Origin: Candidatus Saccharimonadota bacterium
GTDB lineage: Bacteria > Patescibacteriota > Saccharimonadia > Saccharimonadales > Saccharimonadaceae
Direction of reading: 5' to 3'
Assembly: GCA_017460045.1 (NCBI GenBank)
Contig: JAFUBU010000043.1
Span: 1 to 44,516 of the forward strand
Length of the DNA stretch: 44,516 bases
Shown: piece after piece, positions 18,033 through 41,939 of the stretch
How the letters are laid out: every line of letters begins with the position of its first letter
Numbering within the stretch: position 1 is the stretch's first letter
Translations under genes and position numbers: made by a program
Notes under the pieces: model-generated
The model's input: only the letters and a program-made list of their open reading frames with translations
Told to the model about the DNA's origin: nothing
Database searches by the model: none

Positions 18033-18045
18033 CGGTATTTGGTTT

Positions 18046-18105
18046 CAAAATCAGGCCTTCGGCCTGTGCGTCCCAAGGGGCAAACAGGCGCATATTCTGA
18101 TTTTG
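18046..18105. repeat. Hairpin containing one copy of the CGTCCCAAGGGG repeat core
   Basis: The outer arms CAAAATCAG (18046-18054) and CTGATTTTG (18097-18105) enclose a GGCCTTCGGCC hairpin and the core GCGTCCCAAGGGGC (18068-18081). The core is itself flanked by short arms GCCTGT/ACAGGC. The same core recurs at 21.7 kb and 40.1 kb. It lies between tRNA-Trp and the GT4 gene promoter. Confidence 0.7.
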
Positions 18106-18158
18106 GAAATTGATTTATAAATTATTAATTTACTTTTACATTATAGCACAAGTTGTGG

Positions 18159-21655: not shown

Positions 21656-21664
21656 ATGTGAAAA

Positions 21665-21706
21665 TGGAGCCGTGAGTCGGACTTGAACCGACGACCTGCC
21701 GCTTAC
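21665..21706 (-). pseudogene. Duplicated 3' half of tRNA-Thr(TGT)
   Basis: These 42 nt are identical to 21751-21792, the 3' portion of the intact tRNA-Thr gene: part of the anticodon arm, the variable and T arms, the acceptor 3' strand and CCA. The copy breaks in the anticodon loop, where the CGTCCCAAGGGG repeat core (21705-21724) takes over. It cannot form a tRNA. It lies downstream of the intact gene on the same strand. Confidence 0.9.
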
Positions 21707-21724
21707 CGCCCCTTGGGACGCGGA
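21705..21724. repeat. Copy of the CCGCGTCCCAAGGGGCGGT repeat core
   Basis: On the minus strand it reads TCCGCGTCCCAAGGGGCGGT, the same core as at 40083-40101 and 40118-40136. It is flanked by arms GCCGCTT/AAGCGGC, the first of which comes from the tRNA-Thr fragment. Confidence 0.8.
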
Positions 21725-21750
21725 AAGCGGCCCAAGTTGATGCATAAAAA

Positions 21751-21826
21751 TGGAGCCGTGAGTCGGACTTGAACCGACGACCTGCCGCTTACAAGGCGGC
21801 TGCTCTACCAACTGAGCTATCACGGC
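21751..21826 (-). tRNA. tRNA-Thr (anticodon TGT)
   Basis: A 76-nt cloverleaf with acceptor GCCGTGA/TCACGGC, anticodon stem GCCGC/GCGGC with loop CTTGTAA (anticodon TGT, reads ACA), T-loop TTCAAGT and encoded CCA. Its 3' half is duplicated 86 bp downstream. Confidence 0.95.
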
Positions 21827-36397: not shown

Positions 36398-37768
36398 TTA
36401 GTCACGAGTTTTATCAAGCGACAAGAAACGGTTATGCTCGCTGTCGAAGTAGAAATCGATACGACCGGTCGGACCCTGGCGGTGTTTCTCGATTAGAAGC
36501 TCGGTAATATTAGTCGGCTCGTAGTCGTCCTCGTTTTGATGGTAATAGTCGGGACGGTGGATAAACATAACGACGTCGGCATCCTGCTCAATCGAGCCGG
36601 ACTCGCGAAGGTCAGAAAGAATCGGACGCGGGTCGGGACGACCGGCGAGGTTTCGCGAAAGCTGGGCAAGGGCGATAACGGGGATTTCAAGCTCGCGAGC
36701 GATAGTTTTTAGGCCGCGGGAAATCTCGGTAACTTCTTGGACGCGGTTTCCGGCGTAGCGATCGGTACCGTCGAGAAGCTGGAGGTAGTCGATTACGATC
36801 GCGCCGAGGTCGTAATCATGGGCCGCGCGGCGAGCCTTGTTGCGGAGCTCGAGGATATTCATATTGCTTGTATCGTCAAATAAAATCGGGGCGTCGTCAA
36901 TTTCGCCGAGGGCGTCGGAGATTTTAGAGAAATCCTCATCGGAAAGAGTCCCCTGGCGAATTTTCCAAGCGTCGACGTTGGCGACGGCGGCGACCATCCG
37001 CTCGACGATCTCGGTCGCGGCCATTTCCATGGTAAAGAAGAGAATATGCTTTTTGTTGATGGTCGACATATTATAGACGAGGTTTTGCGCAAAAGTCGTC
37101 TTGCCCATCGCCGGGCGAGCGCCGACGATAACGAGCGTTCCCTTTTGGAAGCCGGCGAGCTTCTTGTCGAGGTCGATAAAGCCGGTCTTAAGACCGCGAA
37201 GCGCGCCCTTGTTGCGATGAAGCTCTTCGATACGGTCGAAAGTCTCGATTAAAATAGACGAAATCGGCTGGCAGGTATTTTTAACGGTACGGTCGGAAAC
37301 TTCGAAGAGAGTCTTTTCGGCTTTGCCGACGATGTCGCCGATTTGGCCTTGGCTATCGTAGGCCTCTTCGACAATGTCGCCGCCGGCTTTAATCAAACGT
37401 CGGCGAGTCGCGGCCTCGGCGATTAAGTCGGCGTAAGTCTCGGCGTGGGCCGCGGAAGGGACGAAGTTGGTCAACTCGGCAAGATAGCTAGCGCCGCCGA
37501 CCGCCTTTAAGACTTTTTCGCTCTTTAGCTCGGAGTTCATAGTCTGGAGATCGATCGGACGATGGTTATTATAAAGAGCGGTCATCGCGGCGAAGATTTT
37601 TTGGTGGCGGTCTTCGTAGAAGTCGGGCGCCTTGACTCGCTCGAGGATTTCCGAAAAAGATTCATCAGAAATTAGGATCGCGCCGAGCAGAGATTTTTCG
37701 GCCTCGACGTCTTGAGGCGGGATACGACCGCCGGAGCTAGAACGGGTTGTTTCCTCCATTTTCGTCAT
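36398..37768 (-). CDS. dnaB: Replicative DNA helicase DnaB
   Basis: The hexameric helicase at the replication fork. The 456-residue protein has the N-terminal DnaB domain (PQDVEAEKSLLGAIL at 18-32), and a RecA-like motor with Walker A GARPAMGKT at 216-224. Further on are the IVIDYLQLL Walker B strand, QLSRNLAGRPDPRP and LSDLRESGSIEQDADVV. No intein is present. The start at 37768 has GGAGG 5 nt upstream and lies inside dnaX (32-bp overlap), so the two replisome genes are translationally linked. The alternative ATG at 37759 is less well placed. Confidence 0.97.
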   Translation of the reverse strand: MTKMEETTRSSSGGRIPPQDVEAEKSLLGAILISDESFSEILERVKAPDFYEDRHQKIFAAMTALYNNHRPIDLQTMNSELKSEKVLKAVGGASYLAELTNFVPSAAHAETYADLIAEAATRRRLIKAGGDIVEEAYDSQGQIGDIVGKAEKTLFEVSDRTVKNTCQPISSILIETFDRIEELHRNKGALRGLKTGFIDLDKKLAGFQKGTLVIVGARPAMGKTTFAQNLVYNMSTINKKHILFFTMEMAATEIVERMVAAVANVDAWKIRQGTLSDEDFSKISDALGEIDDAPILFDDTSNMNILELRNKARRAAHDYDLGAIVIDYLQLLDGTDRYAGNRVQEVTEISRGLKTIARELEIPVIALAQLSRNLAGRPDPRPILSDLRESGSIEQDADVVMFIHRPDYYHQNEDDYEPTNITELLIEKHRQGPTGRIDFYFDSEHNRFLSLDKTRD

Positions 37769-39188
37769 TGACCTCCATTACTTTCCCTCCCATTATAGCA
37801 GATAATTTAGAAATTTGGGGGTCGTTTGTAGAAATTACAGTATCATCGGGGTCGAGGACTTGGAGTTCGTAATTTTCGGGGAGGCATTTTTTGAGAATTT
37901 CAGCATTATTTTTCGACGTCAAAATCGTTTTGTAGATTTTCTTTTCGGGGATTAAAGTTATAGTATTATTGGCGATTTTTTGGGTAGTTTTGTTTAGAAT
38001 ATCTGCGAGGGAAGGAGATTGCTGTTGGACTGCGGAATAGAAGGCACTCCAGCTTAACTCCGGGACGGAGTTTTCGACCAAAGGGTTCTCCGAACGGGAG
38101 ATTGTCTCGCCCTTGGAAATTACAACATCCGGGCGGGCCTTCGCCCAAATTCCGCTTTGCTCCAGTTCGGGACTCAGGCCCGCGGATGTTGTAATTTCTC
38201 GGGGAGAAATCTCTTTATTGTTCGTAGAACCCTTTGGTTGAAAACTCTCGGTAGAGTTGACTGGTGAATCTTCCGTAAAAGCTAACAGCAGTTTTGCTTC
38301 GGGGAAGGGGTTGGCGACGCTAGATAAGGGTTTCAGGAGAGGGAGAAGGTCGGGAGAGGGGGAAGCGAGGATGGTATCCAAGATGTCTTCGGCGATAATT
38401 TCGGCGCGGACGCCGGAACTCAGGAGGGCTTTTAGACTTTCGGAAATATCGGCGAGGCTACCCGCGCGGTAGGCGTCAAGGAGACGGTCAATTTTGTCGC
38501 TCGAGGGGAGGCCGAGACTAGAAGAGATAAGCTCGGCGGAGATTTCGCCGTCGGCGATAGTCGAGACTTGGTCGAGTAGGGAGAGGCTGTCGCGGAAAGA
38601 GCCGCCGCCGCGACGGGTCAAAAGCGCGAGCGCGTCGTCGGTAATTTTAATTCCCTCTTTTTCGGCGATTTTTTTAAGGTAGGCTTGCATCACTTCCGGC
38701 GAGGAGAGTCTAAATTCGTAGACCTCGGAACGAGAGATAATCGTCGGCGGGACTTTGTAGACGTCGGTCGTAGCCATAATGAAGACAACGTGGGCCGGGG
38801 GTTCCTCGAGGGTTTTTAAGAGGGCGTTAAAAGCGGATTTAGAAAGCATATGGACTTCGTCGATAATATAGACTTTGTATTTCCCCTCCGCCGGAGCAAT
38901 CGCCGCGCGCTCGCGAAGCTCGCGGATATTATCGACGCCGGTATTGCTCGCGGCGTCAATTTCGAGAATATCGGGGTAGAAATCCTCAAGCTCGTAGTTG
39001 AAGCCGTTAATTTCGTGGGCAAAAATCCGCGCGACGCTCGTCTTGCCGCAGCCGCGCGGACCGATAAAAAGATAAGCATGGGACAGGCGGCCGCGTTTCA
39101 AACTCGACTCGAGATTTTTAGTTACCTGCTCCTGCCCGACGACGTCGCTTAGCTTCGTCGGGCGGTACTTACGATATAAAGCTTTCAT
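37737..39188 (-). CDS. dnaX: DNA polymerase III gamma/tau subunit with an in-frame palindromic insertion
   Basis: The clamp-loader ATPase. In the 483-residue protein Walker A is GPRGCGKT at 43-50, DEVH lies at 110-113, and the ATTD sensor and SRSEVYEF follow. The zinc module normally placed at about 56-72 is replaced by a Cys-free ARIFAHEINGFNYELEDF. Residues about 309-380 are encoded by a large nested inverted repeat (see the separate repeat entry). They are low in conserved-looking features and rich in Ser, Glu and Pro, and would form a linker loop before the C-terminal domain. No slippery frameshift site was recognised. A TATAAT box 8 nt upstream gives a leaderless start. Confidence 0.96.
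   Translation of the reverse strand: MKALYRKYRPTKLSDVVGQEQVTKNLESSLKRGRLSHAYLFIGPRGCGKTSVARIFAHEINGFNYELEDFYPDILEIDAASNTGVDNIRELRERAAIAPAEGKYKVYIIDEVHMLSKSAFNALLKTLEEPPAHVVFIMATTDVYKVPPTIISRSEVYEFRLSSPEVMQAYLKKIAEKEGIKITDDALALLTRRGGGSFRDSLSLLDQVSTIADGEISAELISSSLGLPSSDKIDRLLDAYRAGSLADISESLKALLSSGVRAEIIAEDILDTILASPSPDLLPLLKPLSSVANPFPEAKLLLAFTEDSPVNSTESFQPKGSTNNKEISPREITTSAGLSPELEQSGIWAKARPDVVISKGETISRSENPLVENSVPELSWSAFYSAVQQQSPSLADILNKTTQKIANNTITLIPEKKIYKTILTSKNNAEILKKCLPENYELQVLDPDDTVISTNDPQISKLSAIMGGKVMEVNDENGGNNPF
38051..38264. repeat. Nested palindromic element within dnaX
   Basis: The outer arms at 38068-38089 and 38226-38247 match 21 of 22 nt as inverted repeats, and a weaker match extends to about 38051 and 38264. 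The inner arms at 38116-38131 (gaaattacaacatccg) and 38183-38198 are a perfect 16-nt inverted repeat, extended by GGGCC/GGCCC. All of it is read in frame as about 60-70 residues of DnaX without a stop. Confidence 0.85.
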
Positions 39189-39202: not shown

Positions 39203-39220
39203 ACACATACCTTTAGGAGT

Positions 39221-39376
39221 TAAAATCGTCTAGGTCGGTATTTTCTCGGAACACGAACAAGCGATGACTCTCTGAGGACTAGAATTTGCTAGATTGGTGT
39301 TTTCTCCGAGAAAGGCGCATCTTAAGATGGCCTTTCGAGGAAAAACACCGAGATAGTGAATTCTAGACTCAGAGAG
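39221..39376. repeat. Composite hairpin repeat between dnaX and the next gene
   Basis: A 32-nt arm (39221-39252) matches 29 of 32 nt with the reverse complement of 41892-41923 in the hairpin after rplL. Next, 39268-39376 is a long imperfect hairpin with ~45-nt arms: CTCTCTGAG/CTCAGAGAG ends, a CTAGAATT-type arm, and the inner pair AAAGGC/GCCTTT. The right arm overlaps the stop codon of the 39369-39887 gene. No gene is seen inside. Confidence 0.85.
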
Positions 39377-40054: not shown

Positions 40055-40136
40055 TCCACGGGGCGTAAGGTCTTCGACCTTTCCGCGTCCCAAGGGGCGG
40101 TAGGCGCTTCGCGCCTTCCGCGTCCCAAGGGGCGGT
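40055..40136. repeat. Short array of CCGCGTCCCAAGGGGCGGT repeats
   Basis: Two perfect 19-nt cores lie at 40083-40101 and 40118-40136, spaced 35 bp. A degenerate third copy (TTCCACGGGGCG) precedes them. Between the cores lie small variable palindromes with TTCG loops (AAGGTCTTCGACCTT, AGGCGCTTCGCGCCT). It lies between the CPR-type gene and rlmH; no gene is seen in the 40-172 part of this gap. Confidence 0.8.
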
Positions 40137-40172
40137 CGCCTCGTGCACCAGAAAACAAGTTTTCTGGCGACT

Positions 40173-40610
40173 TCAGCTCCTACCGTGGTGGTATCCGGAC
40201 TTCTTCTGGATTTCTTGGGCGCGATAGATTTGTTCGGCGACGATTAGGCGCGCGAGTTCATGGGGTAAGACTTCGCGGCCGAGACTCCAGACGTAATTAG
40301 CCTTGGTCAAAACTTTGGGCGGGAAGCCGTAAGGCCCGCCGATAATGAAGCAAACGTTGAGCCCCGAGTTCCAGACGCGCTCGAGTTTGTCGGAAAATTC
40401 GATCGAAGAGGCGTTTTCGCCATGTTCGTCGAGCAAAATAATATAGTTGGCGGTCGAGAAGGGCCACTTTAGAAGCGTCGAATTGAGTTTTTCTTCGGGG
40501 ACGAAAGTCCATTTGAGCTGGTATTTCTTGGAAAGGCGCTTTTCGTATTCGGCGATGCCGTCTGCTAACCAACCTTTATGGGCTTTCCCTCCTGCTATAA
40601 TCTGTATCAT
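40173..40610 (-). CDS. rlmH: 23S rRNA (pseudouridine-1915-N3) methyltransferase RlmH
   Basis: A small SPOUT methyltransferase that modifies helix 69 of the 70S ribosome. The 145-residue protein has YIILLDEHGENASSIEFS, CFIIGGPYGFPPKV and the knot segment LPHELARLIVAEQIYRAQEI, and ends near SGYHHGRS, close to the usual xPYH terminus. The length is as expected (about 155). It has a leader with AGAGGA before the ATG and a TATAAT further upstream, divergent from the rplJ promoter. Confidence 0.94.
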   Translation of the reverse strand: MIQIIAGGKAHKGWLADGIAEYEKRLSKKYQLKWTFVPEEKLNSTLLKWPFSTANYIILLDEHGENASSIEFSDKLERVWNSGLNVCFIIGGPYGFPPKVLTKANYVWSLGREVLPHELARLIVAEQIYRAQEIQKKSGYHHGRS

Positions 40611-40778: not shown

Positions 40779-41303
40779 ATGGCTATTTCTAAAGATAAGA
40801 AACAGACTTTAGTTGCAGATTTGACTGAGCTACTCGAAAGCTCGAAGATGACAGTCTTCGCTAAGTATCAAGGGCTGACCGTTGCGGAGCTCCAAGAGCT
40901 ACGCAAGGCCGCGCGCGAAAACGGCGTAAAAATCAAGGTGGTCAAAAACCGCTTGGTACGCGTCGCGATGGGCGAGATTGCCGTCTACAAAGATACGGAT
41001 ACCTCCGGACTGACCGGCCAACTGCTCTACGCGGTTTCGGACAGCGACGAGGTTATGCCGGCGAAAATTCTTAACGAATTCGCGAAGACCCACGAAGCGC
41101 TAGAGATTTCCGGGGCGTTTAACGACGCCGGGGAGACTCTCGCGACCGACGAGGTCAAGGCGCTCGCGGCTCTTCCGTCCAAGAACGAGCTTATCGCTCA
41201 AGTTGTGGCGCAGCTTCTTTCCCCGGTTACGGACTCGATTTCGGGTCTATCCGGCGGGCTTTCCGGAATTGTCTCCGGTCTCGAAGCAAAAGCTACGGCT
41301 TAG
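40779..41303 (+). CDS. rplJ: 50S ribosomal protein L10
   Basis: L10 forms the base of the ribosomal stalk and binds L7/L12 dimers. The 174-residue product has the usual N-terminal rRNA-binding domain (FAKYQGLTVAELQELRKAAREN, VKNRLVRVAM), the FNDAGE turn and the C-terminal helix that holds L12 (SPVTDSISGLSGGLSG). The complex also represses its own mRNA through the leader described upstream. rplL follows after 139 nt. Confidence 0.97.
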   Translation: MAISKDKKQTLVADLTELLESSKMTVFAKYQGLTVAELQELRKAARENGVKIKVVKNRLVRVAMGEIAVYKDTDTSGLTGQLLYAVSDSDEVMPAKILNEFAKTHEALEISGAFNDAGETLATDEVKALAALPSKNELIAQVVAQLLSPVTDSISGLSGGLSGIVSGLEAKATA

Positions 41304-41829: not shown

Positions 41830-41939
41830 TTAGGGCTAAAATCGCTTATCTCGGCATTTTTCGGAACTCGCTCTATCAATAATAGCGCTTCGTTCCGAGA
41901 AAATACTGACCTAAGCGATTTTATCTCCTAATTAGGGCT
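41827..41939. repeat. Hairpin element flanked by an 11-bp direct repeat after rplL
   Basis: TAATTAGGGCT occurs at 41827-41837 and again at 41929-41939. The 91 bp between them are a long imperfect hairpin with ends AAAATCGCTTA (41838-41848) and TAAGCGATTTT (41912-41922). The right arm repeats, 29 of 32 nt, in the dnaX-side repeat at 39221-39252. The pattern (inverted repeats plus a flanking duplication) resembles a MITE-like insertion; it may also terminate rplL transcription. The first direct repeat includes the rplL stop codon. Confidence 0.75.

Follow-up and report, generated by a model that had tools for sequence, protein, structure and literature searches.

We consider it probable, at roughly two chances in three, that the hairpin-forming sequence repeated in the window (the whole stretch of 44,516 nucleotides analyzed here, from a Candidatus Saccharimonadota bacterium) is a mobile DNA element, non-autonomous and of the "coding palindrome" type. 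The evidence comes from its fixed core, the pairing of its variable arms, the kinds of sites it occupies, and the comparison of occupied with empty sites.

A fixed core and its variable partners

The core, GCGTCCCAAGGGGC, was found in 14 exact copies in the genome to which the window belongs (841,835 bases, 0.84 Mb, 94 contigs; counted by pattern search and in retrieved stretches), and the reversed control gave none. In the genus, 79 of 174 genomes carried it, with 273 copies in all and between 0 and 19 per genome, again without a match for the reversed controls. Among the other-genus genomes in a 199-genome sample of the family, no match to the core was found. A scan of the GTDB genome collection with the 19-mer CCGCGTCCCAAGGGGCGGT returned 67 stretches, 65 of them from Candidatus Saccharibacteria MAGs, many from ruminant gut (one is labeled merely "uncultured bacterium", RUG10634). 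L177 and L178, from a Deltaproteobacteria and a Klebsiella MAG, were rejected as element copies, being chance matches in coding DNA. The 19-mer had no match in IMG/VR, and a viral origin was rejected on these grounds. The first-pass annotation had proposed a small family of elements whose core is fixed and whose stems change, which absence of the core elsewhere in this and related genomes, or a lack of conserved pairing in the arms, would have refuted. Neither of these conditions held; the copy numbers, the covarying arms, and the orthologous sites with and without the element (see below) all bear the proposal out. Its exclusion of a CRISPR array also holds, as no more than two or three copies occur in tandem and copies are dispersed over many contigs. 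The data are MAGs with one genome per species, the counts are not corrected for common ancestry or a common host, and the 19-mer scan biases the sampled copies to the CCG..GGT subtype.

Within the window, the 19-mer is exact at 40083–40101 and 40118–40136 on the plus strand and at 21705–21723 on the minus strand (0 expected from 100 shuffles). The two cores near 40 kb previously described as 35 bp apart, the one at 21705–21724, and the 14-nt core at 18068–18081 were all recovered. At 40 kb, two double-hairpin units of 35 nt lie in tandem: unit 1 (40067–40101, +), preceded by T40066, consists of AAGGTC-TTC-GACCTT and TCCG-CGTCCCAAGGGG-CGGT, and unit 2 (40102–40136, +) of AGGCGC-TTC-GCGCCT and the same core hairpin. 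A further "degenerate copy" suspected near 40055 turned out not to be a core, but the left arm (40056–40066) of a larger palindrome, which occurs without the core elsewhere (L098). The unit at 18052–18084 (+, 33 nt) consists of CAGGCC-TTC-GGCCTG and TG-CGTCCCAAGGGG-CAAA, and the core hairpin at 21707–21724 (−) reads TCCG-CGTCCCAAGGGG-CG, the next bases, GT, being part of a repeated tRNA segment. In an Rfam search of the window, only tRNAs and an L10 leader (RF00557; 40641–40765, upstream of the frame 40779–41303) gave matches; the units matched no family.

Inverted arms that border the copies and differ between loci, as had been claimed, were confirmed at the window loci, and in the larger sample they pair and covary. 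Because the outer base pair of the core varies compensatorily (C..G, A..T, T..A), the invariant part is limited to the 12 nt CGTCCCAAGGGG. Repeated two-mismatch variants in eight genomes (ACGTCCCAAGGGGT, 9; CCGTCCCAAGGGGG, 2; TCGTCCCAAGGGGA, 1) keep this outer pair and are dominated by the compensatory forms ACG..GGT, CCG..GGG, and TCG..GGA; one position farther out, 134 of 149 sites have a C-G, A-T, or T-A pair. In hairpin 1, the variable partner, the 5-nt arms were perfectly complementary in 31 of 82 sites, compared with a mean of 4.7 and a maximum of 11 in 1,000 partner shuffles. This test used a fixed register without selection for pairing; the units of class A (see below) are defined by possession of hairpin 1, so that only the fixed-register test counts as evidence of pairing. 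The hairpins themselves thus stood, whereas the TTCG tetraloops once assigned to them are better described as 3-nt loops with a closing C-G pair, which read TTC on the displayed strand and C(GAA)G on its complement. Of 62 units with a 3-nt loop, 55 have the GNA form on one strand (12.5% expected), and in 61 the closing pair is C-G. Since hairpins of the d(C-GNA-G) type are exceptionally stable in DNA, the evidence favors, as an inference, a structure that acts at the DNA level. Of the "RNA- or DNA-level" family proposed earlier, the DNA part is therefore preferred, and an RNA product has no support in the present data, which are DNA sequence only.

Insertion in genes and in older palindromes

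That units lie in frame in protein genes, in tRNA genes, and inside other palindromes had been overlooked in the first-pass annotation. Sixty-eight sites (class A) follow the order T-[hairpin 1][core hairpin]-C, in which hairpin 1 has a variable stem of 5–7 bp and a 3-nt loop and precedes the fixed core hairpin; the unit measures 33 nt in 30 cases and 35 nt in 27. T stands before 66 of the 68 units and C after 59, i.e., the insertion is at T^C. No terminal inverted repeat was seen; T or GT flanks many class A units on both sides and could be a duplication of 1–2 bp. Entire units that share one hairpin 1 reappear at unrelated sites (AGGCC, eight times; CGACCC, 20 times), and therefore both hairpins move together as one. 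Class counts are not independent events, as many copies have host and subtype in common, and about one third of all sites strictly fit neither class A nor class B (see below), with flanks that are older, have degenerated, or are put together in another way.

Long open frames (at least 170 codons, with at least 30 codons on either side of the copy) hold 69 of 154 sampled copies, in both orientations and in all frames, with 46 antisense and 23 sense (p = 0.008). Pfam domains were present in 19 of 20 tested frames carrying the element and identified murG, valS, ileS, lysS, leuS, recG, priA, uvrD, lepA, miaA, and a methyltransferase gene, as well as polA, gatB, der, and obg with two hits each; a tsaD frame also runs into an element at its 3′ end. 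In RecG, the insert comprises 11 residues (TAPWDAESRRL) between the motifs DEQHRFGV and MTATPIPR and has no counterpart in the solved RecG structure 1gm5. In murG of the window's own genome, a "form D" palindrome together with the core adds RSASSEDALLLSLRSRVPRGERRMSNTSQSGAPSSSHSI, which is missing in G242 and G308. The adjacent upstream FtsW/RodA-like gene (L273) and murG (L015) contain the same coding palindrome (peptide SASSEDALL...SGAPSSSHSI), with the core in murG only. Where the empty loop could be inferred, all 27 coding hosts showed a net insertion of 33 or 36 nt, the 35-nt units carrying one extra letter. Stops are lacking from all six frames in 57 of the 68 class A units, compared with 30% of shuffles. 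The element is tolerated in genes owing to this general lack of stops and to the added length of 33 or 36 nt. Retained copies are, however, filtered by selection, and this filter may by itself yield the patterns of frames and stop codons; the pattern of frames, made possible by the short stop-free unit, can be explained by selection acting after insertion.

Host palindromes of ∼100–130 nt form a layer separate from the 33–35 nt unit. Units 1 and 2 split the GGCGT^CGCC hairpin of one of them, form C (40056–40188; CCACGGGGCGT^CGCC..hairpin 40148–40167..CCGTGG), which overlaps the 3′ end of rlmH (40173–40610, −) and, as a complex, has a DNA fold with z of −5.2 and −6.0 on the two strands. Form C without units is present in G242 (the L098 site mentioned above). 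On the 3′ side of rlmH, G242 and G308 have neither host nor units; in these close relatives, RlmH is 89% and 86% identical, respectively, and the flanks align at 76–80% over 560–1174 bases. Presence and absence were also paired in an orthologous frame (L009 versus L246) and in murG, and copies compared among G000, G242, G308, and G251 often differ in position. The unoccupied form of a commoner host loop, CCCGTCGYYACGGG, occurs in 146 of 170 genomes (controls, 0). Among the 68 class A sites, 34 have a host stem of at least 5 bp in reach of the insertion point; exchanging the flanks gives 11.8 (maximum 20) and shuffling the letters 5.4. The element therefore favors loops of older palindromes as targets, although half of the class A sites have no 5-bp host stem near that point. 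The unit at 18052–18084 likewise sits in the loop of a hairpin (18044–18109), beside tRNA-Trp; the empty relative locus L078 compares with the occupied L118.

The window also contains palindromes without the core. One of ∼180 nt (38068–38247) lies in the dnaX frame (37737–39188, −) and adds residues near the C-terminal part; dnaX of G242 has a still larger interruption at about the same place. The same kind holds one unit in L108 (obg, G251), but the two were rejected as orthologous sites because Pfam shows different genes, and they are comparable as host kinds only. Another palindrome (65–187) resembles form D; palindromes of that kind hold the core in murG (L015) and in one further frame (L009). 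A further family (TAAAATCGYYTA..TCGGYATTTT ... AAAATAC..CTAAGCGATTTTA) occurs near genes (39213–39252 with 41892–41931; 41837–41931; 39278–39370), and in L007 the core is within a hairpin of this TAAAATCGYYTA/CTAAGCGATTTTA type.

Class B (32 sites) has the form T-X-loop-X′-(GA or TA) core (AAA or TA)-X, in which X is a direct repeat of 9–60 nt and X′ an inverted copy of its first letters. In 23 of the 32 copies, the first X starts within an intact tRNA gene (15 anticodon kinds), the starting points being the anticodon loop, T arm, or acceptor strand; most of these repeats extend to the tRNA 3′ end. The insertion carries the tRNA part that would otherwise be cut off, and therefore the tRNA is kept intact. 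In the window, the tRNA-Thr(TGT) gene upstream of the insertion is intact (21751–21826, −; ARAGORN and Rfam), and downstream of the core lies an extra 46-nt copy of its 3′ part (21661–21706, −), which is identical to 21747–21792 and spans from the anticodon loop to past the discriminator. The copied part often reaches from the tRNA through its terminator (L065, L102, L104). Class B units are stop-rich, and none of the 32 is coding. Tandem X-core-X-core-X arrays were observed at L102, L104, and L107, behind tRNA-Pro, tRNA-Met, and an unidentified short transcript-like unit, which suggests repeated insertion or unit duplication. The unit at 18052–18084 links the two classes: it has class A size, and its hairpin-1 arm CAGGC repeats the target letters that follow (18085–18089).

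Possible routes of spread

For a mobile element of the coding-palindrome type, we infer that the folded single strand would be the recognized form, pasted into single-stranded loops exposed during replication, and that the core may serve as the recognition site of a trans-acting enzyme, although none was identified. The tRNA class would arise where DNA synthesis continues from the insertion point into the target and then folds back to copy it (X-loop-X′-core-X); tRNA genes are tolerated when hairpin 1 derives from the tRNA's own 3′ part, which restores the gene. No mobilizing enzyme was identified among the gene families searched (Y1 transposase, reverse transcriptase, and tyrosine recombinase), and no transposition was seen. 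The IS200/IS605-type Y1 transposase (PF01797) was rejected as the mover, being present in only 8 of 174 genomes and absent from the element-rich G000, G213, G242, and G251. Tyrosine recombinase is near-universal, mostly in one or two copies, and was undetected in the carriers G308 (six copies of the element) and G253 (merely 58% complete). The mover may be a host replication or repair activity. A leaner variant, in which a minimal non-coding element can make its first hairpin from the target (X-loop-X′-core-X), so that a 20-nt core jumps into tRNA genes and rebuilds them by means of an unknown enzyme or host replication proteins, can be put forward only tentatively and is on balance doubtful; if true, the target-built first hairpin of class B would be a new mode of insertion.

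Replication errors alone, in which templates are switched by fold-back at hairpins, no transposition enzyme takes part, and the core is copied along as a very good fold-back primer, would agree with several observations: the class B arms are inverted copies of adjoining DNA, tandem arrays exist, the d(C-GNA-G)-type loops are of a kind that is extremely stable in DNA, and no enzyme correlates with the element. We nevertheless regard this explanation as improbable, as switching in place does not carry an exact 12–14-nt core to dozens of unrelated loci, identical hairpin-1 units stand at unrelated sites, and the T^C boundary is sharp. That the core is instead a conserved functional site under selection (protein-binding, or an RNA-processing or terminator hairpin), spread by slow vertical inheritance and local duplication, is quite improbable. 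A copy number ranging so widely among congeneric genomes, the shifting positions among the four genomes compared, and class B units that restore a tRNA without evident regulation all speak against it, and insertion in many unrelated conserved genes, in both orientations and all frames, is unlike a regulatory site, even though the 12-nt core is exactly conserved and paired and some copies are intergenic or directly follow tRNA genes, at places where terminators or processing hairpins are also found.

Copying via RNA appears very improbable. Here, a small hairpin RNA would be reverse-transcribed into nicked DNA, with the tRNA class stemming from a copied tRNA transcript end. Reverse transcriptase showed no positive association with the core (36 of 79 carriers versus 59 of 95 non-carriers, four unsearched genomes being scored as lacking the gene) and was not retained as a mover, and one strand or its complement has loops of the GNA type, which is stable in DNA; in favor of an RNA route are the class B copies that run through the terminator and the reported suggestion of such a route for hairpin elements of Allomyces mitochondria (PMC2800124).

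Relation to known palindromic elements

Coding palindromes have been described chiefly in Rickettsia, and their means of spread into protein genes has been an open question since then. In the genus studied here, more than 170 species-level genomes are available, copies number in the hundreds, layers are nested, empty sites exist, and the T^C target is sharp, so that the spread mechanism of coding palindromes becomes testable. On the preferred reading, RecG, MurG, tRNA synthetases, and DNA polymerase I, essential enzymes of very reduced genomes, contain selfish peptide inserts (no expression data), and mobile DNA is present in many annotated proteins and tRNA regions of rumen Saccharibacteria. 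The open-access literature, which lacks most subscription papers, yielded no earlier description of these elements in Saccharibacteria.

Several known systems share single traits with the family. Repetitive hairpin-forming elements of mitochondria, including double hairpins, occur in intergenic regions and rRNA genes of sponges and also in fungi and others (PMC2800124); they resemble the present units in having two tandem hairpins, complementary substitutions between units, and presence or absence among relatives, whereas the Saccharibacteria family is bacterial, lies in protein and tRNA genes, and has a fixed 12-nt core. Of the traits of classical MITEs, terminal inverted repeats with a target-site duplication, no terminal inverted repeats were seen here, the T or GT on both sides of many class A units could be a short duplication, and class B has long direct repeats. 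REPs of the CGTC and GTAG kinds are palindromes of 20–40 bp, some of them intragenic, with an unpaired CGTC (8–9 bp stem) or GTAG (5–13 bp stem) at one end; the CGTC kind has a mostly CCA tail and is without a known transposase (PMC3733652). The letters CGTC do occur in the Saccharibacteria core, but within the short core hairpin, and the units have neither an 8–9 bp tagged stem nor a CCA-like tail. The GTAG REP/RAYT criterion is not met either, since the Y1 transposase is absent from element-rich genomes.

The closest likeness is to the Rickettsia palindromic elements (RPE; Ogata et al, 2000, 2002), which are described as repeats of ∼105–150 bp found in frame in many genes and also in tmRNA and RNase P RNA genes (PMC10969869, PMC2229807), and to the protein-coding palindromic repeats of Wolbachia (Ogata, 2005, as cited in PMC2229807). 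As in those systems, short palindromic repeats lie between genes, in RNA genes, and fused in frame within conserved genes, and the mobilizing enzyme is not known. The criterion of in-frame fusion in many unrelated protein genes is met (69 of 154 copies; Pfam, 19 of 20). The definition of RPE requires 105–146 bp and terminal inverted repeats (PMC2229807), and this length is not reached, the unit being 33 or 35 nt in 57 of 68 cases; moreover, it has two hairpins, a T^C target, nesting in ∼100-nt palindromes, and a tRNA-restoring form, and belongs to a different phylum. Because the definitions of RPE length and of the REP tag are unmet, the family is filed neither as RPE nor as CGTC REP; it belongs to the coding-palindrome kind and, without RPE sequences having been compared, works like RPE.
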